Shown here in pieces: positions 4,753 through 62,618 of a stretch of DNA of 64,000 bases. Origin of the DNA: Pontibacter virosus (GTDB taxonomy: Bacteria; Bacteroidota; Bacteroidia; Cytophagales; Hymenobacteraceae). The stretch is from positions 1-64,000 of the forward strand of contig NZ_QEKI01000009.1 in assembly GCF_003096355.1 (NCBI RefSeq). Reading direction: 5' to 3'. Positions within the stretch are counted from its first letter, which is position 1; each line of letters starts with the position of its first letter. Under the pieces are notes generated by a model. It had not been told where the DNA came from, did not search any database, and saw only the letters and a list, made by a program, of their open reading frames with translations. Position numbers and translations under genes: made by a program.

Positions 4753-4774
4753 CTTATCCATTCCCTTATACCTG

Positions 4775-12310: not shown

Positions 12311-15300
12311 TTATCGGAAGATGGTCACATAGCCGCTGTAGTCCTGGTACTTACCATCGCATAGCTTCACCCTTACCTTGTAGAAGTAAGTACCTTGTTC
12401 CAGCCCCTTGGCAGCCCAATCGTTCTTGTAGTTCTTCTGCTTAAATACCTCAGATCCCCAGCGGTTGAACATCACCATTTCGTTGTCCGGGAACTTGTCC
12501 AGGTTCTTCACCAGCCAGGTATCGTTCTTGCCGTCACCGTTCGGGCTAAAGGCTTTCGGGAATTCCAGTTGTCCGTCGGCCATTCTGGCGTCCATATCGA
12601 TGCTGTATTCGGCTGAGCCTGCGCAGCTGCCGTTGTATGCAATCACGCTCACGCGGCCTGTTGCCGTTGGGCTGCTGGCTTTTACTTTGATGGTGGCCGT
12701 GCCCTGACCAGACTCGATGGTGAAGCCTTCTGTTACCGTCCAGGTATAAGATGTCGCTCCTTCTACCGGATCGGCGGTATAGATCAGTCCCTCGCAGACG
12801 CTGCTGTTATCCGTGATGCGGGTAACAGGGGCAGGAGGCATGGTGATGTCGATGTTCAGGCTAGCCCAGTCGCTGATGCCGCAACCATTAATGGCCCTCA
12901 CACGCACGGTACCGCCCGTTTCGGCAGCAGCCACCGTAATGCTCGTGCCGTTGCTGGCGCCTTCGATCGTCAGGCCACCGGTCGTTTCCCACTCGTAAGC
13001 GGTCGCGCCAGGTATAGCTTCGATGCTGAAGGAGTTGCCTGTGCTATTGAGGCACACGTTCATGTTGCTGTTGATTGTTCCAGGTGTCGCCGGCTTCAGC
13101 GACGGTGAAACGGCCAGTTTGGCTACAGCACCTGCACCACAGTTTTTCACCGTGTTGGTGGCGTATACCTCTATGTCGCCGCTCGTCTCACCTACTGTTA
13201 CGTTGATACTAGTACCAGTCAGTTTGTCGGCGCTCCAGCCCTGCGGTACTGCCCAGGTATAGGTCATGCCTGCCTCCGGTGATGCGATGCTGAACGTGAG
13301 TGTTGCTCCGATACAGCCTGTAGTTGCCGTACTCGCAATAGAAGGTGCTACTGGTTTCAGGGTCACTTTCACAGGCACACTGAGGGCTGCGCTTGTGTTA
13401 CAGTCATTACCAGCTTTCACCGTGATCGGGCCTCCTTCTTTACCAACTTTTACTTTTACTACTCTGCCATTCTCCGTTTCGCTTACTATAGACCAGTCCG
13501 CTGTCGGGAAGGCCCAGGTATAGCTCGTAGCACCGGCTACTACTGGTGTGCTGAAGGTTGTCTCTTCGCCTTCGCACAGGTCCAGGTTGCCCGTGATGGA
13601 CAGCGGTATTGCCGGTGATGGCGTAACCATCAGCACTTTCTCTATGGTGCTGCTGAAGCCACAGGCATTCGTCACCGTTAGGTATACCTTGCCGCCTAGC
13701 AGGCTCTGGTTCTTAGGACGAACACTCACGCTCGTGCCCGCATCGTTTGTGCCTTCTACAAACTCGAGGTTGCTGTCCAGTGTCCACTTATAAGTAAGAC
13801 CTTCTACAGCTGCCGCACGCAGGGCTATACCTGTAGTGCTGTTGAAGCATATGCTGGCGTCTCCTGTAATCGCTACTTTTTCTGGCTCGCCGATTACATT
13901 GACAGTAGTTTCAGCAGTCTTACTAACATCCTTACACTGCGTTTTCACGGTTACTTTTATTACCTGAGCGTTTAGCGTGGTGCCTGCGGTAACGGTTATG
14001 GTGCTGCCGTCTTCAGATTTGCTCACCGTTTTCCAGCCTGCTGGCAGTAACCAGGTGTAGGTGCCACCGATCACATCCGACGTTGCTTTGAAAGTGAGTT
14101 CACCTCCACGGCATACTGAAGTTGGCGCCTCCACAAATGACAGTTCGATGTTCGGGTTACACTTCACATCCGGAATCACCACAACATCTTCATTATTGTC
14201 AGGGTCAGAGTCATCCGGATCACCCGGGTTGTTAGGGTCTCCCGGATTATTTGGGTCATTCGGATCGCCTGGGTTATTCGGATCTTCTGGGTTATTCGGA
14301 TCTTCTGGGTTGTTGGGATCAGTAGGGTTAGAAGGGTCTTTGCTGATGATGCGTGCAATGTTGCGAACCTGGCCTGCCTTTACTAACTGAGCGTTAATAA
14401 TAAGCTCAGCCGTTGCTTTTGCCTCCAGCGAAGGAATCTTGAATGCCCCAGTCACTGGGTCATACGAAGTGCCACTGCTTACACTGAAGTCCACCAACCG
14501 AAGGCTCTCCGGCAGTTTTTCGCCTACTACGATATTTTTTTCTGATGCTGCGCCATGGTTCGTTACCACGATGCGGTATTGCACCATATCACCGACCATG
14601 TACTCTGCCTTGGCGTTTACCAATTCTTTCGTTACGCCCAGGTCAGGCAGCAGGATCACTACTTCCTCTTCGTTGTTGTCCGGATCCTTGTCATTATCCG
14701 GCGTGCGGTCGATGATGGTGGCCACGTTGCGGATGGCACCCGTGCGAACGATCTTTGCATACACAAGCAGTGTGGCAGAAGTGTTTCCTGCCAGTGTAGG
14801 GATATTGAATATACCTGTCGAGGCGTCGTAAGTCGTTCCGCTGGTAGCAGTATGCTTTACATACTCAAGTTCCTGTGGCAACTGCTCTCTTACATTTATA
14901 TTCGTCTGAGGCATTGAGGCGTTGTTTGACACCTTAATCTCAAAGGCCACCACATCGTTTAGCTTATACTCGCTCTTTGGATCAATAAGCTTCTTGGTTA
15001 CACCCAGGTCAGGCAGGATGATCTCCACCTCTTCCTCGTTGTCATCCGGATCTTTGTCATTGGGGCGGTCGATGATCGTGGCTACGTTGCGGATGTTGCC
15101 CGTGCCAACAATCTCGGCATATACGATCAGTGTAGCAGACGCATTGCCTGCCAGTGTCGGGATGTTATAAATGCCTGTCTCAGGGTTATATTTGGTGCCG
15201 GGAGTTTCCTCATGTCGCACATATTTCAACCCGCTCGCCAGTTGCTCACTGACATTAATATTCGTTTCTGTTTTCGATGACTTGTTGTCGACCTTGATCT

Positions 15301-16423
15301 CGTAGGCAATTACATCGCCTAAGCTATAGCTTGATTTCGGGTCAATGATGCTTTTTGTCAGGCTTAGATTTGGGAGAATTATTTCTACCTCATCTTCATC
15401 ATCATCCGGTTCAGGGTCTGGGTTATCGCCAATAATGATCACTTCATTTCGGATATTTCCCGTACCCGTTACTTCAAACACGATTTTGATTGACTCCTGT
15501 GTGTTAGGCTCCATGTCCCCTATGACCCATTGATGGGTACTAGCGTCATAGTAAGTCTGCCCTGTGGCGGATTCTGCCCGCACAAACTTAAGACCTGTAG
15601 GAATTCTCTCGCTCACCGCTACATTTTTAGCAACGCCTGGCCCTCTGTTTACAGCCTTAATGGTGTAGGTTACATAAGCTCCTACCGACACGTCGGTAGC
15701 GTCTGTTTCTTTTGTTACTGAGAGGTCAGCTTCTACCACGTTCTGCAAAGCCAGAATGTTGGTATTGAAGTACACAGTCTCCTGCAAAGAAATGGCTCTG
15801 CCAATCAAGGTTACATTATCGCCTAAGGTGACACTCTTCTTAGCGATGATGTTTCCTTGAAAAAAGCCTGGTGCGCCGATGTTCACATCGCCCTCTACAA
15901 CCCAGTAAACATTCTCCGGTGAGGCCCCCATAGCAGATAACTGCACTGAGCCTGCATTTGAATTGAAATTGCCGTCAATGATAAAAACGAACATCGAGTT
16001 GAAATCTCCACCCCCTGAAAGCTGAAGTATGCCGCTTAGCGTGGCGTCACCCGGAATTTTATAGACGCCTGGGCCTAGGGTGCTGCCACCGCCTAAAGTG
16101 GAGTTGCGAACCTGTGTTACAGGCAAGTCGCGCAACGCCTGGTAGGCTAATTTGGCATCACGCATTCCTTCCTCTGCCACTTCATTGGCTATTTCCTTCC
16201 TACCTGTCAGCAGATTAAGATATTGGTCTTCGCCGATTGATTTACCCGGGCTTGTGCCCAAATAACCATAGACGGTTGTGACACCGGGACCATTGGCTTG
16301 GATTTTAGTGTCTGCCAAGGCCGAGAACTTAGTGGCGCGGCCAAGGGTGATTTCTGTTTGCGCAAAAGTAAGGGTGGTGGCGGCGAACAGAAAAAGGGTG
16401 AGAAGCAGTAAAATTCTACTCAT
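12311..16423 (-). CDS. T9SS type B surface adhesin with ice-binding-like, DUF11 and PKD-like domains
   Basis: This 1370-residue secreted protein has a signal peptide (1-22) and a DUF3494 ice-binding-like beta-solenoid at about 25-230 (TKFSALADTKI, GPGVYKI, GAPGFFQGNIIAKKSVTLGD). Four DUF11 repeats follow at about 232-700, three of them opening with LSLTK, LGVTKK or LGVTKE. An Asp/Pro/Asn linker precedes about six PKD/Ig-like domains with the recurring Y-T-W motif. A gliding-motility-type C-terminal domain (FSPNGDGKNDTW near 1290, NRWG, GTYFYKV) directs type B export. The layout suggests a long cell-surface adhesin. Ice binding itself is unproven: DUF3494 also occurs in non-ice proteins. Codon use matches the neighbouring genes. 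Confidence 0.9.
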   Translation of the reverse strand: MSRILLLLTLFLFAATTLTFAQTEITLGRATKFSALADTKIQANGPGVTTVYGYLGTSPGKSIGEDQYLNLLTGRKEIANEVAEEGMRDAKLAYQALRDLPVTQVRNSTLGGGSTLGPGVYKIPGDATLSGILQLSGGGDFNSMFVFIIDGNFNSNAGSVQLSAMGASPENVYWVVEGDVNIGAPGFFQGNIIAKKSVTLGDNVTLIGRAISLQETVYFNTNILALQNVVEADLSVTKETDATDVSVGAYVTYTIKAVNRGPGVAKNVAVSERIPTGLKFVRAESATGQTYYDASTHQWVIGDMEPNTQESIKIVFEVTGTGNIRNEVIIIGDNPDPEPDDDEDEVEIILPNLSLTKSIIDPKSSYSLGDVIAYEIKVDNKSSKTETNINVSEQLASGLKYVRHEETPGTKYNPETGIYNIPTLAGNASATLIVYAEIVGTGNIRNVATIIDRPNDKDPDDNEEEVEIILPDLGVTKKLIDPKSEYKLNDVVAFEIKVSNNASMPQTNINVREQLPQELEYVKHTATSGTTYDASTGIFNIPTLAGNTSATLLVYAKIVRTGAIRNVATIIDRTPDNDKDPDNNEEEVVILLPDLGVTKELVNAKAEYMVGDMVQYRIVVTNHGAASEKNIVVGEKLPESLRLVDFSVSSGTSYDPVTGAFKIPSLEAKATAELIINAQLVKAGQVRNIARIISKDPSNPTDPNNPEDPNNPEDPNNPGDPNDPNNPGDPNNPGDPDDSDPDNNEDVVVIPDVKCNPNIELSFVEAPTSVCRGGELTFKATSDVIGGTYTWLLPAGWKTVSKSEDGSTITVTAGTTLNAQVIKVTVKTQCKDVSKTAETTVNVIGEPEKVAITGDASICFNSTTGIALRAAAVEGLTYKWTLDSNLEFVEGTNDAGTSVSVRPKNQSLLGGKVYLTVTNACGFSSTIEKVLMVTPSPAIPLSITGNLDLCEGEETTFSTPVVAGATSYTWAFPTADWSIVSETENGRVVKVKVGKEGGPITVKAGNDCNTSAALSVPVKVTLKPVAPSIASTATTGCIGATLTFSIASPEAGMTYTWAVPQGWSADKLTGTSINVTVGETSGDIEVYATNTVKNCGAGAVAKLAVSPSLKPATPGTINSNMNVCLNSTGNSFSIEAIPGATAYEWETTGGLTIEGASNGTSITVAAAETGGTVRVRAINGCGISDWASLNIDITMPPAPVTRITDNSSVCEGLIYTADPVEGATSYTWTVTEGFTIESGQGTATIKVKASSPTATGRVSVIAYNGSCAGSAEYSIDMDARMADGQLEFPKAFSPNGDGKNDTWLVKNLDKFPDNEMVMFNRWGSEVFKQKNYKNDWAAKGLEQGTYFYKVRVKLCDGKYQDYSGYVTIFR
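14176..14340 (-). repeat. In-frame tandem repeat coding an Asp/Asn/Pro linker
   Basis: Inside the adhesin gene, short repeats of a DPNNP(G/E) unit, 15-18 bases each, encode an acidic proline-rich linker between the last DUF11 domain and the first PKD-like domain. Unit number is likely to vary by slippage. The residues could bind calcium, which is inference. Confidence 0.8.
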
Positions 16424-16918
16424 AAGGGTTATGAAAAAAAGCGTAATAAATCAGGCATAAATATAAATGTATTTCCATAAACTTTTACTATATCCTGATA
16501 CTTATATATTCCAGATAAGTTTAGTACAATATAAAAAATACAATATATAGGCAGGAATAAAATGTTATAACAGCAATTGCGTAATACTATTCCAATATAA
16601 ATAAGACAAAGTTTTTTTTCAGAAAAGCAGAATTACAGTACAAATATCTTGAAAGGGACATATATGGTTTTGTTACTACTTGAATATTTGGATATACTAA
16701 TTTAGTGCCCTTTGGTTGCGTAAATACTTATTTTGTACACCTTTTGTTATATCGGCGGGCAAAGGAACTGAAAAAATCTTAATTAAAATAGGGAAATTTA
16801 GGCAAGGGAAACAGTGCAATAAAAAAGTGCCCTATTGATTTTTGTATACCAATAGGGCACTTCAAGTATTAAAGAAAAATTTTCTAAAAATTCTTTAAAA
16901 GTTTATATAAGATTCTCT
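16424..16918. other. AT-rich gene-free region between the adhesin and lipA
   Basis: About 495 bases, strongly AT-rich, with T runs near 16610 and no plausible coding frame. It should hold the promoter of the leftward adhesin cluster, but no clean TAnnTTTG box was found. Its right end carries the lipA terminator at 16825-16862. Confidence 0.6.
16825..16862 (-). terminator. Strong terminator of lipA
   Basis: A perfect 13-bp stem (AAGTGCCCTATTG at 16825-16837, matched at 16850-16862) encloses a 12-base loop. On the minus strand the stem runs straight into a T6 tract, about 57 bases past the lipA stop. Confidence 0.85.
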
Positions 16919-17830
16919 CTACACATTCACATGTCGCTCAGCGTGGTACGATGACCGCACCAACGGGCCAGACTCGACATATTTGATTCCTCGTTTCAGG
17001 CCTTCCTCCCGGTAATGCTCAAAAAGGTCAGGGTGAATAAACTCGGCTACCTCGATGTGAAGCTTGGTTGGCTGCAGGTATTGCCCCAGCGTTAGGATGT
17101 CACAGCCATTGGCAGCCAGGTCATCCATCGCCTGGTATACCTGCTCGCGTGTTTCGCCTAAGCCCAGCATAATGCCTGTCTTGGTACGCTTGCCATACTC
17201 TTTGGTGCGGCGGATCTGTTCTATGCTGCGCTCGTACTTAGCCTGCGGACGTACGCGGCGGTACAGCTCTTTCACTGTCTCCACGTTATGCGACACCACT
17301 TCCTGGCCTGGCGAGATCATGGTGATCAGCGCGTCCCAGCTGGCTTTCACATCAGGTATAAGGGTTTCAATCGTGGTGGCAGGAGAAAGTTCTTTTACCA
17401 TGCGCACGGTTTCGTGCCAAATGGCGGCACCGCGGTCTTTTAATTCGTCGCGGTTAACAGAGGTTATCACGGCGTGCTTCACGCCCATCAGCTGAATGGC
17501 TTCAGCTACGCGGCGCGGCTCGTCTACATCATACTCATTAGGGCGGCCCGTGGCCACGGCACAGAAAGAGCAGCTGCGCGTACACACATTGCCCAGAATC
17601 ATGAAAGTAGCTGTGCCGGCTCCCCAGCACTCGCCCATGTTCGGGCAGTTACCGCTCTCACAGATGGTATGCAGCTTATACTCGTCTACGATGTTTCTTA
17701 CCTTCGCATACTCTTTCCCTACCGGCAGCTTTACACGCAGCCAGTTTGGCTTGCGGGGCTGACCCAAAGCATTGAGCCCCTCGGGCTTAGCGTTGGGTTG
17801 TATTACCGGAAGTGTCATCATTTCATCCAT
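16919..17830 (-). CDS. lipA: Lipoyl synthase
   Basis: A radical-SAM enzyme that inserts two sulfurs into protein-bound octanoyl groups to make lipoyl cofactors. The 303 residues show both iron-sulfur motifs: C57-x4-C62-x5-C68 ([12 protein letters not shown]) for the auxiliary cluster and C83-x3-C87-x2-C90 (CTRSCSFC) for the SAM cluster. The RSSYHAE motif near the C-terminus carries the conserved serine. Lipoyl groups serve the glycine cleavage H-protein and 2-oxoacid dehydrogenase E2 subunits; gcvP and an E1 fusion lie in the same window. The -7 promoter box sits only a few bases before the ATG at 17830, so the real start may be the ATG at 17821 or 17818, or the mRNA may be nearly leaderless. 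Confidence 0.96.
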
Positions 17831-40260: not shown

Positions 40261-40827
40261 ATGAACGCTATGAATACCTTAAACCAAATCTCCCGCACCG
40301 TCGAAAACCAGAAGCACACCGCTATATCCGCTTTTGTGCCGCTGGAGCTCTCTCTTCTCAACTACAAACCTGCTCCGGATAGCTGGAGCATATTGGAGTG
40401 CCTGGAGCACTTGAACAGGTATAGCCGTTACTACAACTCGGTTCTGGCAAAGGCCATCGCGGCTAATTCCGGTGGCGAACTTGAGCAAACGATCAGGTAT
40501 AGCTGGCTGGGCAAAAAGTCGCTGGACATGGTGCGACCGGGAAATGGCAAAAAGAGCAAAACCGTGAAGCACATGAACCCCAATAATAGCCAGTTGGGCC
40601 GGCAGGCACTAGAGGAGTTTCTGGATCATCAGACCGAACTGCTGCAACTCCTCGACAAAGCCAAAGGTGCCAACCTGAACAAAAAGGCTATACCTGTGGA
40701 GTTCTTCAAGCTGCTGAAGCTGTACATCGGGGAAACGCTGGAGTTTGTGGCACTGCACCAGGAGCGGCATCTGCAGCAGGCCCTAAATGTAAAAAAGCAG
40801 CTACCCGTTAACCAGGCAGTTGCTTAA
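40261..40827 (+). CDS. DinB family protein
   Basis: A 188-residue four-helix-bundle protein. The metal-binding histidines of the DinB/YfiT fold are placed as in the family: H in ECLEHLNRYSRYY, and the pair in LHQERHLQQA. The N-terminal KPAPDSWSILECLEHL is a strong signature. Members include putative thiol-dependent metalloenzymes, some using bacillithiol in Bacillus; with YtxJ present such a role is possible but unproven. It is convergent with the duplicated secreted-protein pair. Confidence 0.88.
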   Translation: MNAMNTLNQISRTVENQKHTAISAFVPLELSLLNYKPAPDSWSILECLEHLNRYSRYYNSVLAKAIAANSGGELEQTIRYSWLGKKSLDMVRPGNGKKSKTVKHMNPNNSQLGRQALEEFLDHQTELLQLLDKAKGANLNKKAIPVEFFKLLKLYIGETLEFVALHQERHLQQALNVKKQLPVNQAVA

Positions 40828-40854
40828 AATATTGTCAACAAGCTTTATGAAGGC

Positions 40855-41535
40855 TTACAGCGAGTTATAGTAAGCCACCAGTTTGGCCATGTCGCTGTCG
40901 TCGCGCAGGTTCAGCGCATTGGACTTGATATAGGTCTCCAGGTAGTCTTTCTTATCCGGTATGGCAGCCAGCAGGGAGCTCTTCGATTTCTTCACTTTCA
41001 CCGCCTTGTCGCCCACGGCAATGTAGTAGTCATCGCTTTCCTGCACCTCTCTGTCGATGGTGGCCGAGCTGTAGTGCTTGCGGTCGAAAATCTTTTTGGA
41101 GGTACGCTTCAGGAGCACGACTTGTCCGTCGGCCAGCACTTCCATAAAAGCCTTGGCAGGCACCCCGTCGCCGCTATACCCTGAGCGGAAGGTGCGTTCC
41201 ACCGGCTGGTTGTTTTCAATGTACCCGATCTTAAACTCCTGCACCGGCTCCAGCAGCTCCTTCACGTCTCCGTTCTTGGTCTTGAAGATGATGGCGTCCT
41301 TCACCTGGTCATACATCAGATCGATGCCTTGGTATACCGTGCCGTTTTTAAGCGTCAGCGAGCCTTTCGCCCAGTCTTTGTACACGTATGGCGAGCCTAT
41401 CATCGTGATGGTGTTGTACTCATGCACCGGACGGGCCTCCATGTCGTTGGTATGCGTGAACTGCGCGCTCGCCTGCAGGCTAAAGCAGCAACCGACCAGC
41501 ATCATTAAACCGAATCGTAAGACGAGAGCTTTCAT
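40855..41535 (-). CDS. Secreted protein of unknown function, copy A of a tandem pair
   Basis: A 226-residue protein with a signal peptide ending LQASAQ. The core includes GSPYVYKDWAKGSLTLKNG, LMYDQVKDAIIFKT and LKRTSKK, and it ends DMAKLVAYYNSL. It shares this layout and ending with the next upstream gene (copy B). No named domain is recognised. Expected location is the periplasm or outside. The AGGTATA motif is rare in it. Confidence 0.75.
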   Translation of the reverse strand: MKALVLRFGLMMLVGCCFSLQASAQFTHTNDMEARPVHEYNTITMIGSPYVYKDWAKGSLTLKNGTVYQGIDLMYDQVKDAIIFKTKNGDVKELLEPVQEFKIGYIENNQPVERTFRSGYSGDGVPAKAFMEVLADGQVVLLKRTSKKIFDRKHYSSATIDREVQESDDYYIAVGDKAVKVKKSKSSLLAAIPDKKDYLETYIKSNALNLRDDSDMAKLVAYYNSL

Positions 41536-41564
41536 AGGGCGTTTGTTTTAAGTTAAAAATAAGA

Positions 41565-42221
41565 TCACAGGCTGTTATAGTAGGCTATCAGTTTGGCCAT
41601 GTCCTGTTCCTGCCTCAGGTCCAGGCGATTTGATTTCACGTAAGCTTCCAGCTCAGCGCTTTTGTCAGGTAAAGCAGCCAGTAGTGATTTTTTGTCTTTC
41701 TTTACCTTGGTAAGACTCAGGTTAGAGGCTGTAACGTAGTAAGACTCATTTGAGCGGATCGTCTTTACTTTGGTCGCTGCGTTGTAGGCGGCTTCCTCGA
41801 TCACCTTTTTGCTCGTGCGCTTCAGCAGTTCGGTTTTGCCCTCTACCAGCACTTCGTAGTAAGACTCAGGCGAGGCGCCGTCCGTGGCAGGATAGCCTAT
41901 GCGGAATGTCTTTTTATCCATAGTAAACTCTACTACCGGCTCTACAAAGAGCATCTCTTTTCCGGCCTGGTCCAAAAACATCAGTTCGTCCGCTACCTGA
42001 TCGTATTTCAGCTTCACGCCATCAAACGCCTTGCCGCTTTTCAGCTTCACAGAGCCTTCAACCCAATCTTCGAAGAGGTAGGGCGTGCCTTTGATATCGG
42101 TGTAGCGCTTCTCAAAAACCGGACGACCCATAAAGTCAGACATAAGCCCCTGTGCTGATGCTGCCGCAGTGCTTATAAAGAATGCCAAAAAGGTAAGCTT
42201 TAAAGTTGTTCTCAGGTTCAT
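41565..42221 (-). CDS. Secreted protein of unknown function, copy B of a tandem pair
   Basis: The start is the ATG at 42221 (MNLRTTLKLTFLAFFISTAAAS then AQ), giving 218 residues; 11 upstream codons were dropped. It aligns along its length with the following gene: TPYLFEDWVEGSVKLKSG, LKYDQVADELMFLD, LLKRTSKK, and the ending DMAKLIAYYNSL. Thirty bases separate the copies, which suggests cotranscription. No named family is recognised. Confidence 0.75.
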   Translation of the reverse strand: MNLRTTLKLTFLAFFISTAAASAQGLMSDFMGRPVFEKRYTDIKGTPYLFEDWVEGSVKLKSGKAFDGVKLKYDQVADELMFLDQAGKEMLFVEPVVEFTMDKKTFRIGYPATDGASPESYYEVLVEGKTELLKRTSKKVIEEAAYNAATKVKTIRSNESYYVTASNLSLTKVKKDKKSLLAALPDKSAELEAYVKSNRLDLRQEQDMAKLIAYYNSL

Positions 42222-42408
42222 GGACACACGCGTTTTATGGGTGAATATAATCATTTTTTATCAATTATGTAATATTGCACCCCTTGTCGGGCAATATCTC
42301 TTATGGGCTGATTTTTTAGACAGTAAGCGTAAAATACGGCCGATTTTAACTTTCTTGCGCCCGATTTTGTTCTAACCCGGCCCCCGGTTTGAAAAGGGCT
42401 GACTGACC

Positions 42409-43041
42409 ATGCGTGAAAAAGTAGTTAGCTATAGTTTTTTCTTTCTTGGATTGCTTTTGTTCGGCTTTGCCAATGCTATTGCCGTGAAGGTGAAATACCT
42501 GGGTCTGCACCCCTGGGAGGTGCTGAATGTGGCCCTTTTTCAACACCTGGGCTTTACGATAGGTACCTGGAGCGTGATGGTGGGACTGTTTTTTGTGGCT
42601 ATCTCTTGGTTTATTAACCGTAAATATATCAACATAGGCACTTTTCTCAATGCCATGCTTGTCGGACCATTCATGGACATGTTCCTTTGGCTCGACATCC
42701 TGCCTTCGGCAACCAACACCTCGCTCGACTACCTGAACCTGGCCGCTTCGGTCATTATTGCAGGTATTGCTGGTGGACTCTATGTAGCAGGCGGTGTGGG
42801 CGCTGGTCCGCGCGACGGTTTTATGTTGGCTTTGTCAGAGCGGTTGAACGCGTCTGTGAGTCGCACCCGCATTGTGGTGGAGTGCGTGATCCTGGGTATA
42901 GGCTATTTGCTAGGCGGCCCGATCTTCATCGCCACTTTCTTCTATACCTTCATCATGAGCCCGATCTTCCAGGTCACGCTCCGCTTCTTCCAGCGAATGC
43001 GGAATAACCTGATCGAGGCTGAAGTTAGGGTAAAGGTATAG
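42409..43041 (+). CDS. YczE/YitT-like integral membrane protein
   Basis: The 210-residue protein has five or six membrane helices. It carries the YczE-type segments HPWEVLNVALFQH, GVGAGPRDGFMLALSERL and a conserved arginine-rich turn (VSRTRIVVECVIL). YczE of Bacillus subtilis affects surfactin production; the biochemical role is unknown. The gene is divergent from copy B of the tandem secreted pair. Confidence 0.8.
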   Translation: MREKVVSYSFFFLGLLLFGFANAIAVKVKYLGLHPWEVLNVALFQHLGFTIGTWSVMVGLFFVAISWFINRKYINIGTFLNAMLVGPFMDMFLWLDILPSATNTSLDYLNLAASVIIAGIAGGLYVAGGVGAGPRDGFMLALSERLNASVSRTRIVVECVILGIGYLLGGPIFIATFFYTFIMSPIFQVTLRFFQRMRNNLIEAEVRVKV

Positions 43042-44783: not shown

Positions 44784-45278
44784 ATGGAGGAAACCTACCT
44801 TTCAGACTTCGGAACCATCCTGCTCTTCCTGATCGGGGGAGCCATCTTCGTGGTGATCGGTCTGTTTGCCGCCCGGCTTATCCGCCCCAGCCGACCCAAC
44901 CCCGAGAAGCTAACCACCTACGAGTCGGGCGAAGAGCCGATCGGCAACTCATGGGTGCAGTTCAACCCGCGGTTTTATGTGGTGGCACTTATCTTCATCA
45001 TTTTTGATGTGGAGCTCGCCTTCCTGTTTCCGTGGGCCACGGTGTTCGGCCGCCGCGACCTGATCGAAGCGACTGACGGCGTATGGGGTTGGTTTGCCCT
45101 GATCGAGATGTTCATCTTTATCGGTGTGCTGGCGCTGGGCCTGGCCTATGCCTGGGTAAAAGGCCACCTCGACTGGATCAGACCCAAGCCCGTGGTGCCG
45201 CAAAGCCGCTCCCGTATACCTAAGGAGGTATACCAGCGCGTAAACGAACAGCGAAGAACACTTAACAACAAGCAGTAA
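44784..45278 (+). CDS. nuoA: NADH-quinone oxidoreductase subunit A
   Basis: A small membrane subunit of complex I. The 164 residues hold three transmembrane helices (about 8-30, 68-90, 100-125). Family signatures include [16 protein letters not shown] and the acidic [12 protein letters not shown] in the second helix, at the junction of the quinone site and the membrane arm. The cytoplasmic C-terminal tail is longer than in E. coli. nuoB, nuoC and nuoD follow, the last after an interruption. Confidence 0.95.
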
Positions 45279-45369: not shown

Positions 45370-45894
45370 TTGAACATTCCACAGGACAAGACGGGAGAAG
45401 GCGGTGTGATCATCACCAAACTGGACGATCTGCTCAATTGGGCGCGACTGACCTCGCTGTTCCCGATGGGTTTCGGTCTGGCCTGCTGCGCCATCGAGAT
45501 GATGGGGGCTTACGCTTCCGGCTACGACCTCGACCGCTTCGGCATTATACCCCGTGCCTCGCCTCGTCAGTCGGATGTAATGATCGTGGCCGGTACCGTG
45601 ACCTTTAAGATGGCCGACCGTGTGCGCCGTCTCTACGAACAGATGCCGGAACCGCGCTACGTGATCTCGATGGGCAGCTGCTCCAACTGCGGCGGCCCTT
45701 ACTGGGAGCACGGCTACCATGTGGTGAAGGGCGTGGACCGCATTATACCGGTAGACGTGTACGTGCCCGGCTGTCCGCCAAGACCGGAGGCACTGATCGG
45801 TGGCTTCCTGCGTCTGCAGGAGATCATCCGCCAGGAGACCATCCGCGACCCAAGAGCCGTGCAACAAATCATGGCAAGAAGAATGACGAATTAA
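45370..45894 (+). CDS. nuoB: NADH-quinone oxidoreductase subunit B
   Basis: Carries the N2 [4Fe-4S] cluster next to the quinone site of complex I. The four cysteine ligands are visible: the CC pair in [11 protein letters not shown], then GSCSNCGG and [10 protein letters not shown]. The 174 residues are near normal. An in-frame stop lies only a few codons upstream and no ATG is available, so the start is the TTG at 45370. Confidence 0.95.
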
Positions 45895-46090: not shown

Positions 46091-46693
46091 ATGACCTTCG
46101 GAGAGCTAAGAGATTTGATAGCAACGCAGTTTGGTGCTCAGGTGATTGCCGCCGAGCACACCGACAACCTACAGCCCTACCTGGTGCTTCAGACAGAGCG
46201 CCTGGCGGAGGTGTGCCTCGAGCTGCATGACAACGAAGCGACTTATTTCGACTTTCTCTCCAGCGTGACAGGTATAGACAATGGTCGCGAAACCGGCACC
46301 ATGGAAGTGGTGTATAACCTCTACTCTATCCCTTACGACCACCACCTGATGCTCAAAGTGATCGTATCGCGCAACAATACACCCAAGACTCCTATACCTG
46401 TCGTGCCGACCGTGAGCCATATCTGGCGCACCGCTGACTGGCAGGAGCGCGAGATCTTCGACCTGGTGGGCATCCTCTTCAAAGACCACCCCGACATGCG
46501 CCGCATCCTCTGCGCCGCCGACTGGGAAGGTCACCCGCTCCGCAAAGACTACCAACTACAGGACTATTACCACGGCATCAAGGTACCCTACGACCAGCAC
46601 AACGAAAACAGCGGTTTCCGGGGTGAGCCTATCAAGCTAATCTCACAGGAAGATCCGTTTACGGATAAACGAGAGAAGCCAGAGGTATCGTAA
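46091..46693 (+). CDS. nuoC: NADH-quinone oxidoreductase subunit C
   Basis: The 30-kDa hydrophilic subunit of complex I. The 200 residues include SSVTGIDNGRETGTMEVVYNLYS and the signature HIWRTADWQEREIFDLVGILFKDHPDMRRIL, ending with HPLRKDYQL. It is separate from nuoD, unlike the fused nuoCD of E. coli. nuoD lies 2.4 kb away beyond three genes on the opposite strand. Confidence 0.94.
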   Translation: MTFGELRDLIATQFGAQVIAAEHTDNLQPYLVLQTERLAEVCLELHDNEATYFDFLSSVTGIDNGRETGTMEVVYNLYSIPYDHHLMLKVIVSRNNTPKTPIPVVPTVSHIWRTADWQEREIFDLVGILFKDHPDMRRILCAADWEGHPLRKDYQLQDYYHGIKVPYDQHNENSGFRGEPIKLISQEDPFTDKREKPEVS

Positions 46694-46698
46694 GAGAT

Positions 46699-47151
46699 TT
46701 AGTGAAGCTCCTTCTCAAAGCACACACTATTCTCCACACCAGCATACTGTCCATAATTCGGGATTAGCTGATAGCCGTTCTTTTTATAGAGCCCGATGGC
46801 TTCGGGCTGCTTCAACCCGGTTTCCAGGATACATTTTTCAAAAGAGAGTTCGCATGCCCATGCTTCTAGTTCAGCCAGTACCTGGCTGGCTATACCTTGG
46901 CCTCTTCCGGCTGGCTGCACATACATGCGCTTCACTTCCACTGTGCCCGGCTCGTATTCTTTGATCGCACCACAGCCGAGCGCTTTTCCGTTCTCGTACG
47001 CCAGCACCACATGCTTTATCTTGTCGATCTTATTGTACTGCGCATAAAAGGCATGCTCTTCTCCGTCCCGAATAGCAAGATCTGCATCGAGCAGTTTTAC
47101 TAAGGCCACAAAGTCAGGGTCGTCCGAATCGGTTCTTTTCAGGTATAGCAT
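46699..47151 (-). CDS. GNAT family N-acetyltransferase
   Basis: A 150-residue acetyl-CoA-dependent acyltransferase. The acetyl-CoA loop is GRGQGIASQVL after the strand VKRMYVQPA, with the late motif LKQPEAIGLYKKNGYQ. It is convergent with nuoC, five bases from its stop. It contains two AGGTATA-family motifs and normal composition, so it seems older here than the next two genes. The substrate is unknown. Confidence 0.88.
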   Translation of the reverse strand: MLYLKRTDSDDPDFVALVKLLDADLAIRDGEEHAFYAQYNKIDKIKHVVLAYENGKALGCGAIKEYEPGTVEVKRMYVQPAGRGQGIASQVLAELEAWACELSFEKCILETGLKQPEAIGLYKKNGYQLIPNYGQYAGVENSVCFEKELH

Positions 47152-47192
47152 GAGTTGGTGGGTGTTTACTTCAGGCCATGAAAGGCTGCGCT

Positions 47193-47876
47193 TTACTTCA
47201 ATTCAAATTTGTGTAATGTCTGCACATGCTCCTTCCGTTGGTACCAGTCATTGTACACCAACACGAGCGCATTGACTTTGAAGGTGCCAAAACAGTGGTT
47301 TCTGTACGCTCCTACTAAGCTTAGAAATTCATCCTTATTCCTGAGCTTTTCCCTTAGTCTGACTATCGTCGCGTGGGCTGTTTGTATGGCGTATCTTTTG
47401 TCAATGGACTGTTCCAAGCCTGAGTTTTGGAAGTTATCCCTCAAGTTATCCCGAAGCTGGCTGAGCGTATTGTCTTCTAAAAAACCTTGCACCATCAAGC
47501 AAGATGGAGACGCCGTCAGTCCTCTGAATTCAATCTTAAATGGCCCCACGCCGTTGATGCTTTCCTTAATCGTTTCTATGTAATCCTCAATCCGGATCTG
47601 GCTGAGCTTAAATCCATCATAGCATGAAATGATCGACATTACTGTCACATGTAGATCCGAATCCCGGTAAAAATACTGGTGTGGCTCAAGCAGCTTCAGT
47701 TTCGAAAGCAACTTTTGGATCTCTGCTTTTACCGCATCATCTGGCCGTAACAAAAGGGTTATCCCAAATCTGTTGTCACTTGCAGAATCAATTAACTCGT
47801 CTACTTGATAAGCATCTGATTTAATCCTGCGGATAGAATCCTCATAAAGTTGATCATAGTGTTCTTGTAGATGCAT
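47193..47876 (-). CDS. 2H phosphoesterase / 2'-5' RNA ligase superfamily protein
   Basis: The 227-residue protein has the two H-x-T/S-phi motifs that define 2H phosphoesterases: LHVTVMS (near residue 76) and AHATIVR (near 169). These form the active site of cyclic phosphodiesterases and 2'-5' RNA ligases. The substrate is unknown. Composition is more AT-rich than the nuo genes and the AGGTATA motif is absent. It is part of the block splitting nuoC from nuoD. Confidence 0.75.
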   Translation of the reverse strand: MHLQEHYDQLYEDSIRRIKSDAYQVDELIDSASDNRFGITLLLRPDDAVKAEIQKLLSKLKLLEPHQYFYRDSDLHVTVMSIISCYDGFKLSQIRIEDYIETIKESINGVGPFKIEFRGLTASPSCLMVQGFLEDNTLSQLRDNLRDNFQNSGLEQSIDKRYAIQTAHATIVRLREKLRNKDEFLSLVGAYRNHCFGTFKVNALVLVYNDWYQRKEHVQTLHKFELK

Positions 47877-47977
47877 GCAGCTAATCTTTGTAGTAACTAG
47901 GTTGAGCTATGAAGTTGAACGTGTTGGGCTATACGGCTGTGTAGCTGCCGTATAAGTTTTGTTGTGCTTTGCTGTTT

Positions 47978-48943
47978 CTACTTCTTAAGCCTGTAGCCAA
48001 AGTTTACCCCTGCTCCCAAGCTAAACTCTGTAAATGAGTCAAAGCTATAAAATCTGGCGAAGGTATTTATTTTGTTGAATTGCCTGCTAAGCTCCCCTTG
48101 GTACTCTACCTTATCCCTGTATATAGCTGCTTTGCCAGTTACAGAAAGTCTTAAAAGTTCACCTATTGATGTTCCCAAACCAACTAAAGGCCCTGATGAG
48201 GATTGGCTGCCATCCATATCATTTTTATTAAAGTTGAGCCTGCCGTACCCAGCAATTAACCTTAGTTCGCCTATATTCAGGAATGGTCTGCTAAAGTTAA
48301 AGCTTGCCTCCCAAGAGTTTGCATCCGAGCTAAAACCCTGTTTCAGTTCAACTCTTCTATGATGCCACTTTGCGTCTAAGTCAAAGTTACAGGTTACTAA
48401 TATGTGTTTCAGCTCAATTTGAGCATTGCTAACCTTATTTTTATCAAAGTTTGACTGAATCTCTACTCCTCCTTTCAGAGTCAAATCCCGATAAAATGCT
48501 GGGAGGGATAAATCTATTCCTGCACCAAAAGGATTATTTATAATTCCAGTCATCAAATGAATGCCCACCAATTGATGGTCGAAGAAGTCTTTAAAACAAC
48601 TAGATTTTAGTTCTACCTGAATACTGTCTCGTCCTTTTAAGCGTACTTCCTGTTGAATATACCCAATGAAAGAGACTATTAAAATCGCATTTGGGTCGCC
48701 GACTTCAAGAGAGAATCTTCCATCTGATGCGGTTGCTGTACCGTTCTCTCTTCCCTTTTCTTGAATACTTGCACCTGGCAATGGCAGTTTGTCAAGTTTG
48801 GAAATGACAGTTCCATGCACAACTGATTGGCTTAAGACCTCACCAATGGTGAATAGTAATATCAGCATTAGGAGAATGGTCTTTTGCACTCTTCTATTCT
48901 TTCTTAAAGTATAGCCTAACTCATGTATAAACAGAATAAACAT
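47978..48943 (-). CDS. Outer-membrane protein with carboxypeptidase-regulatory N-domain
   Basis: The 321-residue protein has a hydrophobic N-terminus, then a CarboxypepD_reg-like domain at about 40-115 (VVHGTVISKLDKLPLPGASIQEKG, DGRFSLEVG, FIGYIQQEVRL). The remainder, at about 135-320, looks like a small beta-barrel ending GAGVNFGYRLKK. The start at 48943 gives an extended N-terminus; an internal Met at about residue 26 could be the real start. It is AT-rich (near 38% GC in sampled lines) and has no AGGTATA motif in its coding sequence. Confidence 0.7.
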   Translation of the reverse strand: MFILFIHELGYTLRKNRRVQKTILLMLILLFTIGEVLSQSVVHGTVISKLDKLPLPGASIQEKGRENGTATASDGRFSLEVGDPNAILIVSFIGYIQQEVRLKGRDSIQVELKSSCFKDFFDHQLVGIHLMTGIINNPFGAGIDLSLPAFYRDLTLKGGVEIQSNFDKNKVSNAQIELKHILVTCNFDLDAKWHHRRVELKQGFSSDANSWEASFNFSRPFLNIGELRLIAGYGRLNFNKNDMDGSQSSSGPLVGLGTSIGELLRLSVTGKAAIYRDKVEYQGELSRQFNKINTFARFYSFDSFTEFSLGAGVNFGYRLKK

Positions 48944-49124
48944 CCCGTTATTTATCGTTTTTGGCAGATAACTGTAACTGGATTACCGAATATACTATAT
49001 AGCGACCTAACTATACCTGCTTTTCTCCTAAAATCTGCCCTCAAAACAAAACCCCTCCATAATTCCCCCATTTTTCCGAACTTTGCTCAACTCATAACTT
49101 TTAACTCTCAACTAAATCTCCCCC

Positions 49125-50330
49125 TTGTCTACCACGCACAAAGAATACCTGCTGCAGTCGGAGCCGAACAAGTTCAGCCTGGAACACCTGCGGGCGGGCG
49201 AGATGATCGTGAACATGGGGCCCCAGCACCCGAGTACGCACGGTGTACTGCGCCTGGAGGTGGTGACAGACGGGGAGATCGTGCAGGAGGTGGCGCCACA
49301 CATCGGGTACCTGCACCGCTGTTTCGAGAAGCATGCCGAGAGCATGGCCTACAACCAGACCATCCCCTACGTGGACCGCATGGACTACCTGGCCGCCATG
49401 AACTCGGAGCACGTGTGGTGCATGGGCGTGGAGAAGTTATTAGGTATAACAGACCAGATTCCCAAGCGGGTAGAGTACATCCGGGTGCTGGTAACGGAGC
49501 TCAACCGACTGGCCTCGCACTTCCTGGCCATTGGCACTTATGCCATCGACATCGGGGCTTTCACCCCTTTCCTGTGGCTGCTGCGCGATAGGGAGCACAT
49601 CCAGCGCCTGCTCGAGTGGACTTCCGGCGCCCGCATGCTGTATAACTATATCTGGGTGGGTGGATTGTACTACGACCTGCCCATCGGCTTTGAGGAGCGC
49701 TGCCGGGAATTCATTCACTACCTAAAGCCTAAGCTCGACGAGCTCGACACCATCCTGCTCACCAACAAGATCTTCATCGACCGCACCGCCAACGTGGGGG
49801 TACTGCCGCTAGATGTGGCTATCAACTACGGCTGCTCCGGCCCGATGCTTCGTGGCTCCGGCCTGCGCCACGACCTGCGCCGCGTCGATGGATATAGTGT
49901 GTACCCTGAACTGGAGTTTGACGTGCCCATCGGCGAAGGCATCATGGGCACCACCGGCGACTGCTGGGACCGTAACTATGTGCGGGCGCTCGAGTGCCGG
50001 GAGTCTGTCAAGATCATCAGCCAGTGCCTCGACAGGCTGCTGGGTGAGCACAAGCGCACCCCCGATTTCGATCCGCAGGCGGCCTGCCCCAAGAAGCTGC
50101 GCATGACCGGCACGCAGGAGCTCTACTTCCGGGGCGAAACACCTCGTGGCGAGCTGGGTTACTTCTTCCGCACCACCGACCGCAGCGACGTGCCTTTCCG
50201 CTGCCACGGCCGCGCCCCAAGTTTTGTGAACCTGTCCGTACTGCCCGAAATCAGCCGTGGCTGCATGGTGGCCGACCTTATTGCCATTGTGGGCTCTGTG
50301 GATATTGTGCTGGGTGAGGTGGACAGGTAA
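49125..50330 (+). CDS. nuoD: NADH-quinone oxidoreductase subunit D
   Basis: The 49-kDa subunit of complex I, forming the quinone pocket with NuoB. The 401 residues include [18 protein letters not shown] with the quinone-site His, ERVEYIRVL-like segment [34 protein letters not shown] and the C-terminal [12 protein letters not shown]. The frame opens at a TTG, without an upstream ATG. It is strongly GC-rich relative to the upstream block. No nuoE-nuoN genes follow; the next gene is a PAP2 phosphatase. Confidence 0.95.
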
Positions 50331-58971: not shown

Positions 58972-59859
58972 CTATTTTGCAGCAAGCGCCTCTGCACCCC
59001 CCACGATCTCGAGAATCTCCTTCGTAATGGCCGCTTGACGCGTCCTGTTGTAAGTAAGCTTCAGTTCTTTCAGCAGCTCGCCGGCGTTTTCTGTCGCCTT
59101 GTCCATGGCAGTCATTCGGGCACCGTGCTCGGAGGCATTCGACTCCAGCACCGCTTTGTATACCTGTATTTTAAGCGACTTAGGTATAAGCTCCTCGATG
59201 ATCTGCTCTTTTGATGGCTCAAAGGTATAGTCAGACACCATGTTGTTGGCCGTTTCTTCAACTGGCTTATCTTCAATTGGCAGGAACTGCTCGGTACGCA
59301 CAATCTGCGTTGCCACGTTCTTGAACTCGTTGTAGATGATGTCCACCTGATCGAACTCACGGGCTACGAAACCATCCATGGCACGCTCCGCTGCAACGCG
59401 AACAGTGTCAAAAGAAAGGTTTCCGAAAGTGCCGGTGTAGTCACCAATCACTTTGTAACCACGCTTGCTCAAAGCCTCAGCACCTTTACGGCCAATTGTC
59501 AGGAAGGTAAGGTTACCGGCCTCATACTGGCTGCGGTACTTGCCCTGTGCCAATACATTGGCTGTTTTGATAATGTTTGAGTTAAAAGCACCCGCCAGAC
59601 CACGGTCAGAAGTTACCACGATCACAAGCACTCTGTTCGCTTCGCGCTTTTCAGAGTAAACGTTCGACACAGAGCCCTCTGTCAGTTGAGACAGGTTGGC
59701 CAGGATGCCACTCAGACGCTGCGCATAAGGGCGCATACGCAGAATATTGTCCTGAGCACGTCTCAGCTTGGCAGCCGCCACCATTTTCATGGCTTTGGTG
59801 ATCTGCTGTGTTGACGATACAGATGTAATGCGGCCTCTAACCTCTTTTAAACTTGCCAT
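58972..59859 (-). CDS. atpG: ATP synthase F1 gamma subunit
   Basis: The rotary shaft of F1. The 295 residues begin MASLKEVRGRITSVSSTQQITKAMKMVAAAKLRRAQ, the family signature, and end with the conserved TRQAAITKEILEIVGGAEAL. It is the last gene of the leftward cluster, ending at a terminator, with no atpD or atpC beyond. A hairpin lies between it and atpA. Confidence 0.97.
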   Translation of the reverse strand: MASLKEVRGRITSVSSTQQITKAMKMVAAAKLRRAQDNILRMRPYAQRLSGILANLSQLTEGSVSNVYSEKREANRVLVIVVTSDRGLAGAFNSNIIKTANVLAQGKYRSQYEAGNLTFLTIGRKGAEALSKRGYKVIGDYTGTFGNLSFDTVRVAAERAMDGFVAREFDQVDIIYNEFKNVATQIVRTEQFLPIEDKPVEETANNMVSDYTFEPSKEQIIEELIPKSLKIQVYKAVLESNASEHGARMTAMDKATENAGELLKELKLTYNRTRQAAITKEILEIVGGAEALAAK

Positions 59860-59880
59860 ATTATGTATGATATGAGCATA

Positions 59881-59917
59881 AAGTTAGAGACCGCTTCTAA
59901 CCGGCAGTCTCTAACTT
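59881..59917 (-). promoter_or_regulatory. Intercistronic hairpin between atpA and atpG
   Basis: An 11-bp perfect stem (AAGTTAGAGAC at 59881-59891 with GTCTCTAACTT at 59907-59917) with a 15-base loop. No T run follows, so it is more likely an mRNA processing or stabilising element than a terminator. Confidence 0.5.
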
Positions 59918-59928
59918 ATAACCAACTA

Positions 59929-61509
59929 TTACTTTTTGTAACGGGCAGAAAGCTCTCTGGCCACCTGCTTGATAACACCTGTTGTCTCGTCGTCCAGCTT
60001 TCCAGCCAGCAGCGCGTTTAGGGTGTCCTGGTGCTGGGCACGCATCGTGCGCAGGAAGTCTTTCTCGAATGTTCTAACTTCTGATACAGGCACGTTGTCC
60101 AACAGACCGTTTGTAGCGCAGTAGATAATGGCTACCTGCTCAGCAACTGATACTGGAGAGAACTGTGGCTGCTTCAGGATCTCGAGGTTACGACGACCAC
60201 GCTCAATTGTTAGCTTGGTAGCGGCATCCAGGTCAGAACCGAATTTCGCAAACGCTTCCAGTTCACGGAACTGCGCCTGATCCAGCTTCAGGGTACCAGA
60301 TACTTTCTTCATCGCCTTGATCTGAGCGTTACCACCCACACGCGATACAGAGATACCTACGTTAATCGCAGGACGGATACCTGAGTTGAAAAGGTTGGTC
60401 TCCAGGAATATCTGACCATCCGTAATCGAGATTACGTTTGTCGGAATATAGGCAGAAACGTCACCAGCCTGCGTCTCGATAATTGGAAGGGCAGTCAATG
60501 AACCACCACCTTTCACGAGGTGCCTGATAGACTCTGGCAAGTCGTTCATGTTGCGAGCGATCTCGTCAGAAGCGTTTACCTTAGCGGCACGCTCCAGAAG
60601 ACGGGAGTGCAGGTAGAATACGTCACCAGGATAAGCTTCACGCCCTGGAGGACGACGCAGCAGCAGGGACACTTCGCGGTAAGCCACGGCCTGCTTGGAA
60701 AGGTCGTCATAAACAACCAGTGCAGGACGGCCGGTATCGCGGAAGAACTCACCGATAGCAGCACCTGTAAATGGAGCAAAGAACTGCATTGGAGCTGGAT
60801 CAGAAGCAGAAGCCGAAACTACTACTGTATAATCCATCGCGCCACCTTCAGTCAGTGACTTCACTACCTGGGCTACTGTAGATGCTTTCTGACCTACGGC
60901 AACGTATATACAGAACACTGGTTGTCCTTTTTCGAAGAACTCACGCTGGTTCAGGATGGTGTCTATCGCAACGGCAGACTTACCTGTCTGGCGGTCACCG
61001 ATGATCAGCTCACGCTGCCCACGGCCGATCGGAATCATGGAGTCAATCGCCTTGATACCCGTCTGCATTGGCTCGTTTACCGGCTGACGGAACACCACGC
61101 CTGGTGCTTTACGCTCCAGTGGCATGTCGTACAGGTCGCCTGCAACAGGTCCTCTACCATCGATTGGCTGACCCAGTGTGTTTACCACACGGCCGATAAT
61201 GCCATCACCTACTTTTACAGAGGCAATACGGTTCGTTCTTCTTACAGTGGCGCCCTCTTTGATTTCGCTGTAGTCGCCAAGCATTACGGCACCTACGTTG
61301 TCTTCTTCCAGGTTCAGAACAAGCGCCTGAAGTCCGTTCTCAAACTCTAATAGCTCACCAGACTGTGCTTTGGAAAGGCCATAGATACGAGCGACACCGT
61401 CACCCACTTGCAGTACTGTACCTACTTCTTCCAATTCTGCCTCAGAACGGAAGCCAGATAGCTGCTCTCTTAGTATGGCTGATACTTCGTCAGGTCTTAC
61501 TTCTGCCAT
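59929..61509 (-). CDS. atpA: ATP synthase F1 alpha subunit
   Basis: The regulatory nucleotide-binding subunit. The 526 residues include the P-loop [13 protein letters not shown], the [19 protein letters not shown] segment, and [24 protein letters not shown]. It is separated from atpH by two bases. AGGTATA motifs are absent from this 1.6-kb gene, as expected for a highly conserved sequence with little tolerance. Confidence 0.98.
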
Positions 61510-61511
61510 GA

Positions 61512-62069
61512 TTATAATTTATTGATATAGGGGTTGTCTTTAAATTTATTTCTCAGCTTGTTCAGGTTATACTTCACAGAGCTGTCAATCTGCTGATCGC
61601 CCACACGGAGCACGAAGCCACCGATCAGGGTTGTATCAATCTTTTCTTCTAATTCTACGCGCTGACCAGTCTGGGCTACCAGGCGCTGGCCAAGTTCGTT
61701 GCGAAGCTCTTCTGTAAGCGGCACGGCAGTAGTCACGCTGGCTGTTGTGATGCCTTTGTATACATTATACTGCTTCGTAAACTCAGGAGCAATAAACACA
61801 AGCACCGACTCACGGCCTTTTTGAGCCACGATCTTGAAGAAAGCCAGGGTAAGGTCGTTTACTTTGCCTTTGAACACCGCATTGATCACAGCCAGTTTCT
61901 TATCTGACTTCACAACTGGGTTACGCATCAGGAGCTTCAGTTCTCTGTTCTGGTCAAGTACTTTGGCGAACATATCCATGTCCTCCTTCACTTGCTCCAG
62001 CACACCTTTTTCCTGTGCCAGCTCAATCAGTGACTTTGCGTATCTCGAAGCAATTCTAATTTCTGACAT
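61512..62069 (-). CDS. atpH: ATP synthase F1 delta subunit
   Basis: Part of the peripheral stalk that links F1 to Fo. The 185 residues show the OSCP/delta layout: N-terminal helical domain starting with [17 protein letters not shown], and C-terminal [41 protein letters not shown]. It is adjacent to atpA with a two-base gap. Confidence 0.96.
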
Positions 62070-62123
62070 ATTGCTTTATTATGGCCATCCTGCAGTATAA
62101 GCGGTCTGGCTATGTTGATACGA

Positions 62124-62618
62124 TTAGTTAAGCGTTACTTCTTTGATGTAATCCTTGGCAAGCTCCTGCTGTGCCTGTGGGTTGCTCAGTTCTTTACGCA
62201 GGATACGCTCAGCGATGTCCACTGAAAGTACAGCAGCCATGTTCTTCACTTCCGTGATAGCAGCACGCTTCTCGTTTTCGATGGACTCACGTGCCTGTGC
62301 GATCATACGCGAACCTTCTTCGTTTGCCTTCTGCTTCGCCGTTTCGATCAGCGCGTTGCCAGCATCAGAAGCTTCCTTCAGGATCTTGTCACGCTCCATA
62401 CGGGCTTCAGCCAGCAGTTTTTCGTTCTCAGCCTTCAGACCCTGCATCTCAAGCTTTGCTTTCTCAGCAGCGCTCAGTGCATTTTCGATAGAAGTTTCAC
62501 GCTCATGCAGGGCGTTCATGATTGGCTTCCAGGCGAACTTGGAAAGCAGGAACAGCACGATGATGAAAGTCACCAACTGCCAGAAAATTAAACCTATACC
62601 TGGGGTTACTAATTCCAT
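62124..62618 (-). CDS. atpF: ATP synthase Fo b subunit
   Basis: The peripheral stalk subunit. The 164 residues have one N-terminal membrane helix (GLIFWQLVTFIIVLFLLSKFAW) followed by a long charged coiled coil, as in the family. It is separated from atpE by 130 bases that hold a bulged 13-bp hairpin. Confidence 0.96.
   Translation of the reverse strand: MELVTPGIGLIFWQLVTFIIVLFLLSKFAWKPIMNALHERETSIENALSAAEKAKLEMQGLKAENEKLLAEARMERDKILKEASDAGNALIETAKQKANEEGSRMIAQARESIENEKRAAITEVKNMAAVLSVDIAERILRKELSNPQAQQELAKDYIKEVTLN

Follow-up and report, generated by a model that had tools for sequence, protein, structure and literature searches.

The window that we analysed, a 64,000-nucleotide stretch of contig C9 in the 4.88-Mb genome of Pontibacter virosus (G000), carries the respiratory genes nuoA to nuoD on the plus strand, and nuoC and nuoD are separated by three genes on the minus strand. 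The features of the locus are as follows.

44784–45278, plus strand: nuoA.
45370–45894, plus strand: nuoB.
46091–46693, plus strand: nuoC (PF00329, E 4.1e-40).
46699–47151, minus strand: GNAT acetyltransferase (PF00583, E 9.8e-16), an older resident of the gap common to seven genomes.
47193–47876, minus strand: 2H phosphoesterase of the AKAP7/LigT type (PF10469, E 5.1e-8), found at the same place in G005.
47914–47967, minus strand: attC of the cassette, 54-nt short type (R3 covariance model, E 9.7e-11).
47920–48919, minus strand: putative integron gene cassette of 1,000 bp, from TTAGGC to the last G of attC, placed by its junction sequences.
47978–48889, minus strand: CarboxypepD_reg open reading frame in the cassette (PF13715, E 1.3e-13), with homologues in G014, G031 and G035.
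48910–49009, minus strand: putative R1 dock element of about 100 bp, with a promoter-like AT box, a hairpin and an attI-like right arm that runs to G^TTAGGC.
49071–49085, plus strand: block TTTTTCCGAACTTTG, upstream of nuoD and kept in most congeners in the alignments.
49125–50330, plus strand: nuoD, with a TTG start (PF00346, E 6.4e-83).

The gene coordinates and domain profile matches confirm the original prediction that three minus-strand genes separate nuoC from nuoD. The phosphoesterase also matches TIGR02258 (E 9.8e-9), under the cut-off of that family. As had been claimed, the two genes nearest nuoD are AT-rich, with a GC content of 0.427 in the phosphoesterase and 0.401 in the cassette compared with 0.605 in nuoD; the values for nuoC and GNAT are 0.547 and 0.494. 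The listed ATG start of the third gene, at 48943, lies outside the cassette, and an in-frame GTG at 48889 is the likelier start.

The heptamer AGGTATA occurs 139 times in the window, where 4.9 copies are expected (~29 times over-represented). Two copies lie in the GNAT gene and none between 47148 and 49011, where about four would be expected (Poisson P(0) 0.017). The motif-free stretch noticed earlier over the last two genes is thus confirmed, but the window has four longer ones (2403–4767, 14810–17136, 40689–42943 and 59223–62595), so the absence beside nuoD is weak evidence by itself, and we rejected it as proof of recent arrival. Outside the gap, in the 40 loci compared, AGGTATA is found at 1.5–3.6 per kb in G000, G003, G005, G009, G010, G011, G015, G016 and G017 and at 0–0.9 per kb in the remaining congeners; it seems to be a dispersed motif that spread within one group of the genus.

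How is the same place arranged in relatives? Within the genus, 33 genomes (our own and 32 of 36 congeners) have nuoC and nuoD on the same contig and strand, with a gap of 157 bp in G025 and of 1.4 to 7.6 kb (at most 7,604 bp) in the other 32. The two genes are on different contigs in G005, G007 and G018, and ~16 kb apart and inverted in G034. With gaps of 157–7,604 bp and varied cargo, chiefly on the minus strand, the synteny comparison did not return one layout for all close relatives. The idea of added DNA between nuoC and nuoD is borne out. The premise that the two genes normally adjoin is only partly true of the order. Outside the genus, where 17 of 22 genomes gave matches, the best nuoC and nuoD adjoin in G042, G045, G050 and G051, but 11 others have them separated or on two contigs, and a split is therefore not rare in the order.

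GNAT follows nuoC in 7 of the 37 nuoC loci (our own and six more; in G010, the C-terminal part alone matched, and in G011, another open reading frame precedes it). The phosphoesterase follows nuoC in two, our own and G005 (76.5% identity), and the G005 contig stops just past the phosphoesterase, where the gene is preceded by an attC-like stretch (judged by eye) that differs from ours. Among the 37 nuoC loci, the third gene occupies this place in our own genome only, the G005 contig ending where it does. GNAT and the phosphoesterase are older residents of the same gap, as had been proposed for GNAT, which is common to seven genomes of the genus. On the other hand, a joint arrival of the phosphoesterase and the third gene as one insert is not supported, and the gap is better read as layers. 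Insertion in two or three steps by unrelated mobile elements would account for the composition gradient and for the layered sharing of GNAT and the phosphoesterase, but it is very improbable given a third gene bounded by R1, GTT and attC, with close homologues in the genus in an integron context.

Could the third gene be an integron gene cassette? The R3 model, a covariance model of short attC sites built from nine rows (one from the C8 array of G000, none from the window), finds the 47914–47967 site on the minus strand with the E value given above; its second-best match in the window has an E of 1.1. The site lies 3′ of the third-gene reading frame, on the coding strand, as expected of an integron cassette, and G^TT is found at both cassette boundaries, in GTTAGGC (48920–48914) and in GTTCAAC (47920–47914), so that cleavage of the attC would fall between G47920 and T47919. 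By its sequence, the third gene is an integron gene cassette, and its excision as a circle is predicted.

The relatives of its product point the same way. Among the matches listed, there are three near-full-length homologues in the genus (41% identity): that of G031 lies in an array beside an attC, that of G014 at an R1 copy, and that of G035 ~1.3 kb from R1. A short attC lies directly 3′ of each of the three genes. The next listed matches cover the CarboxypepD_reg domain only, apart from one outside the genus, in G056, with 27% identity and an internal stop. The hydrophobic start of the cassette protein suggests that it is exported; the AlphaFold model (mean pLDDT 35) was left unused.

Furthermore, we observed that docks and arrays have cassettes in common. 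At its nuoD dock, G009 has a cassette that matches, with 89.4% identity over 489 bp, a cassette sitting between two attC sites in the G000 C8 array. The counterpart of the second nuoD cassette of G011 is an array cassette of G030 behind the recombinase gene (93.2% identity over 710 bp). Both matches begin at GTT, and the sequences before it are unlike. The G009–C8 match ends at the last G of the attC (the next base in G009 is A, not T), and the G011–G030 match fades inside the attC. The boundary rule at GTT and at the attC end is seen on cassettes common to docks and arrays.

The element next to the cassette, R1, recurs ~100–200 bp upstream of nuoD in many congeners. The cargo is on the downstream strand of R1 and begins next to the element with GTTRG. 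Its covariance model has 13 rows, 11 of which come from 10 nuoD loci, the window copy among them, so the presence of R1 at nuoD loci is not an independent result. In our own genome, the model finds three copies, with the window copy, itself a training row, at 97.3 bits. At E ≤ 0.001, copies are present in 36 of the 37 genus genomes (all but G032), and 22 genomes from other families in the order gave none. The exact 22-base core pattern of R1 occurs at 55 loci in a collection of 84,980 species, confined to Pontibacter, Adhaeribacter, Rufibacter and Botryobacter, which we take to be members of the Hymenobacteraceae. The second copy of our genome lies behind ridA, where the element is kept in seven species and the reading frame after it differs. 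An Rfam search of five loci gave no match at the gathering score, and none on R1, and RNAalifold found no consensus base pair in an 18-row R1 alignment; single R1 sequences fold into hairpins of varying strength, and a hand-made structure is kept partly.

R1 and attC go together. We scored 36 nuoD loci of the genus for R1 (E ≤ 1e-3; the shortened copy of G016 was counted, and G033, at E 0.03, was counted as absent) and for attC (E ≤ 0.01). R1 is present at 18 of the 36, and an attC, always on the strand of R1, was found at 14 of these 18 loci versus none of the 18 lacking R1. The nuoD loci of G014, G015, G016 and G017 have R1 but no attC at this threshold. When the four loci that had supplied training rows are removed (G003, G011 and G019 for R2, the long-attC covariance model of 13 rows, and G030 for R3), the counts become 10 of 14 versus 0 of 18; because the species are related, these are not independent events. 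The ridA docks carry an attC on the strand of R1 in seven of seven cases (R2 in six, R3 in G017), although five of them gave training rows, with G005 and G009 giving none. Across the 55 R1-pattern loci, of which a few supplied training rows and some overlap, an attC lies on the cassette strand no more than 3 kb 3′ of R1 in 33 cases and is lacking there in 22; strand and side are as expected in 63 of 66 attC–R1 pairs. A simple heuristic for attC lacked specificity (57 matches versus 39 in shuffles), which leaves the covariance models as the basis of the claim. For the short type, a regular expression picked up one sequence, and a geometric scan gave 12 distinct ones, not all of them attC-like, versus 3 matches in shuffled loci.

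These counts bear on an alternative in which the cassettes entered a genomic site of the attG type and R1 is just a conserved promoter or repeat that happens to be there. The cited passages of PMC12901181 and PMC12444791 document the insertion of cassettes at genomic attG sites, and R1 is only partly attI-like. However, the R1 pattern stands at 55 places in four genera with attC downstream at 33 of them, several species use the same sites at nuoD and ridA, R1 and attI have a right-arm pattern in common, and two R1 copies contain attI-like sequence. We regard this alternative as unlikely.

A different explanation, also improbable, is an integrase-free hotspot: homologous recombination in nuoD, nuoC or the Band_7 gene would pass cargo from one species to another, and the attC sites would just be carried along. 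It draws on the 32 of 33 measured gaps that hold cargo, including those of the 18 loci lacking R1 except G025, and on the recurrence of a Band_7-type gene in 22 loci and of its 62-aa partner in 18 (one representative of each was domain-scanned). It also draws on partial nuoD copies inside the nuoC–nuoD gap, namely an N-terminal piece (aa 2–106) in G012 (L042 7839–8153) and a shorter one (aa 2–32) behind a second R1 copy in G036 (L064 8233–8325). These pieces may be recombination traces that carried cargo together with the 5′ end of nuoD, and so ordinary homologous recombination acts here too. Nevertheless, a hotspot of this kind leaves unexplained both the association of R1 with attC and the cassette boundaries held in common with distant arrays.

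Our own genome has such arrays. R2 finds 58 attC sites in it at E ≤ 0.05, in groups on C6, C8, C27, C28, C30 and C31 and singly elsewhere. At E ≤ 0.001, all 37 genus genomes have 7–57 attC sites each, and among 21 others, only G045 has any; when R2 was run on four genomes of other genera with strong recombinase matches, attC matches were again found in G045 only. On C8, a recombinase match at 161324–162136 (plus strand) is followed by ten R2 attC sites on the same strand at 163449–177297, so that the array begins just 3′ of a tyrosine recombinase gene of ~490 aa. An attC array beside such a gene is the arrangement of a chromosomal integron, with the tyrosine recombinase in the place of the integrase.

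The recombinase has the tyrosine recombinase catalytic domain (PF00589, E 1.9e-40) and an N-terminal extension of ~200 aa. The additional domain specific to IntI, around patch III, was not found; nothing in the G010 protein aligns with residues 208–250 of 2A3V, a solved structure listed as IntI4. The whole G000 C8 protein scores 193.6 against TIGR02249, for which the cut-off is 265, and no genome match passes this cut-off, the genome scores being those of pieces split near positions 180 and 241. A TIGR02249 match alone was rejected as evidence of an integrase, as 4 of 14 control genomes match too; since these matches are unspecific, we relied on attC arrays beside recombinase genes. In the cited passages of PMC9668308 and PMC9024848, the additional domain is treated as defining for IntI and as necessary. 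We therefore did not file the recombinase as IntI, although its gene is positioned as for IntI, and, as it lacks a domain regarded as necessary for IntI activity, another enzyme may do the work.

The attI-like sites lie 137–145 bp 3′ of eight recombinase genes. The attI of G027 and the R1 of G030 have 16 bases in common before the junction, CGTTTATACTATAGTT, and other attI-like right arms have TATACnnTAGTT in common with R1; the attI right arms of G010, G016 and G029 differ more from it. The R1 copies of G004 and G026 contain attI-like sequence. At nuoD or ridA, R1 adjoins no recombinase gene, and its likeness to the attI right arm is partial. With its attI-like right arm, R1 looks like an integrase-less satellite dock with a promoter-like box. 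Taken together, we consider it highly probable that a chromosomal integron has a satellite docking site just upstream of nuoD, our confidence being slightly reduced by the partial likeness of R1 to attI. Such docks are not everywhere, as half of the nuoD loci have no R1 and hold other genes.

In the satellite-dock reading, the recombinase would excise cassettes as folded single strands and would join their attC to attI or to R1 docks; movement of cassettes between arrays and R1 docks by the recombinase is the most likely route suggested by the sequences. Promoters of the Bacteroidetes have the −7 consensus TAnnTTTG, and the minus-strand box of R1, TATATTCG, is one base off it. This AT box would drive the docked cassette in the direction away from nuoD, with the minus-strand transcript starting just downstream of ATATAGTATATTCG. 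In our genome, the dock holds a single cassette, that with the CarboxypepD_reg reading frame. nuoD would be transcribed from its own promoter, for which the block TTTTTCCGAACTTTG at 49071–49085 is a candidate.

Could this be a separate lineage of integrons? It is plausible, and we would defend or doubt it with equal readiness, that Pontibacter and its relatives have a lineage in which a recombinase without the IntI-specific domain acts on attC, promoter-bearing attachment sites are spread over the chromosome (at nuoD, ridA and elsewhere), and cassettes are expressed singly, one per dock, instead of competing for one array promoter. Like sedentary chromosomal integrons with IntI (2A3V), the system has attC hairpins whose boxes resemble RYYYAAC and GTTRRRY, as a rule one reading frame per cassette, large arrays, and an attI-like site beside a tyrosine recombinase gene. 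Unlike in those integrons, the C8 recombinase gene runs in the same direction as its array, and, unlike their IntI, the recombinase is without the ~40 residues at 2A3V 208–250, has the long N-terminal extension and remains under the TIGR02249 cut-off.

Insertions at attG sites were reportedly described by Loot in 2024. As in these insertions and in CALINs, attC cassettes are found here away from an integrase gene; unlike them, the dock has a conserved element of ~100 bp, a promoter-like box and an attI-like arm, and one dock takes different cassettes from species to species. Integrons, CALINs and attG insertions are already known, the last from the cited passages of PMC12444791 and PMC12901181. 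Delta-attI sites, as presented in a passage of PMC12901181 (Sci Rep 2026), are likewise attI-derived sequences away from an integrase gene; they are parts of cassettes in mobile clinical integrons, whereas R1 is found in the chromosomes of several genera, as a dock 5′ of cassettes. The Bacteroidota are among the phyla with integrons in passages of PMC8618304 and PMC9668308, and the IntegronFinder 2.0 paper names one complete integron in the Bacteroidetes itself, in Salinibacter ruber M1. The top-ranked matches in the open-licence literature contained no Pontibacter integrons, no such recombinase with attC arrays and no fixed promoter-bearing docks.

As integrons are recognised by the special domain of their integrase, surveys that require this domain could miss the Pontibacter system. 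If the recombinase acts on attC without the IntI domain, a requirement found in textbooks no longer holds, and it becomes possible to test whether integrons arose from Xer-like enzymes. Expression of cassettes from fixed docks, each with its own promoter, would be new, and such docks would account in part for the split respiratory operon that nearly every species in the genus has.

A few further observations concern single loci. In G045, a member of another family, five attC-like matches, two of them weak, lie in one stretch (L267–L271, G045:C1:2249124–2259912) and share the strand of an IntI-like match 15–25 kb away; the system may extend beyond the family. Serine resolvase genes, one of them a PF00239 match, lie ~150–180 bp from R1 copies and divergent from the cassette, at L122 (~17.3–17.9 kb), L124 (~3.0–3.6 kb) and L125 (~5.5–6.0 kb) in G007:C48, G007:C51 and G026:C23, respectively. 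They may be part of mobile carriers; a resolvase-run system was set aside, as just 2 of the 55 loci have a near homologue of the G007 resolvase less than 700 bp from R1. The third R1 copy of our own genome (G000:C17:87870–87969, L111) has a 16-bp perfect hairpin arm, lies ~1.6 kb from a transposase-like gene (by eye) and is followed by an open reading frame. Finally, the genome has two further NuoC/NuoD-like sets (G000:C19:33147–34880 and G000:C3:163458–164993), with NuoD at ~40% identity, one of which is a single 586-aa open frame spanning C and D.
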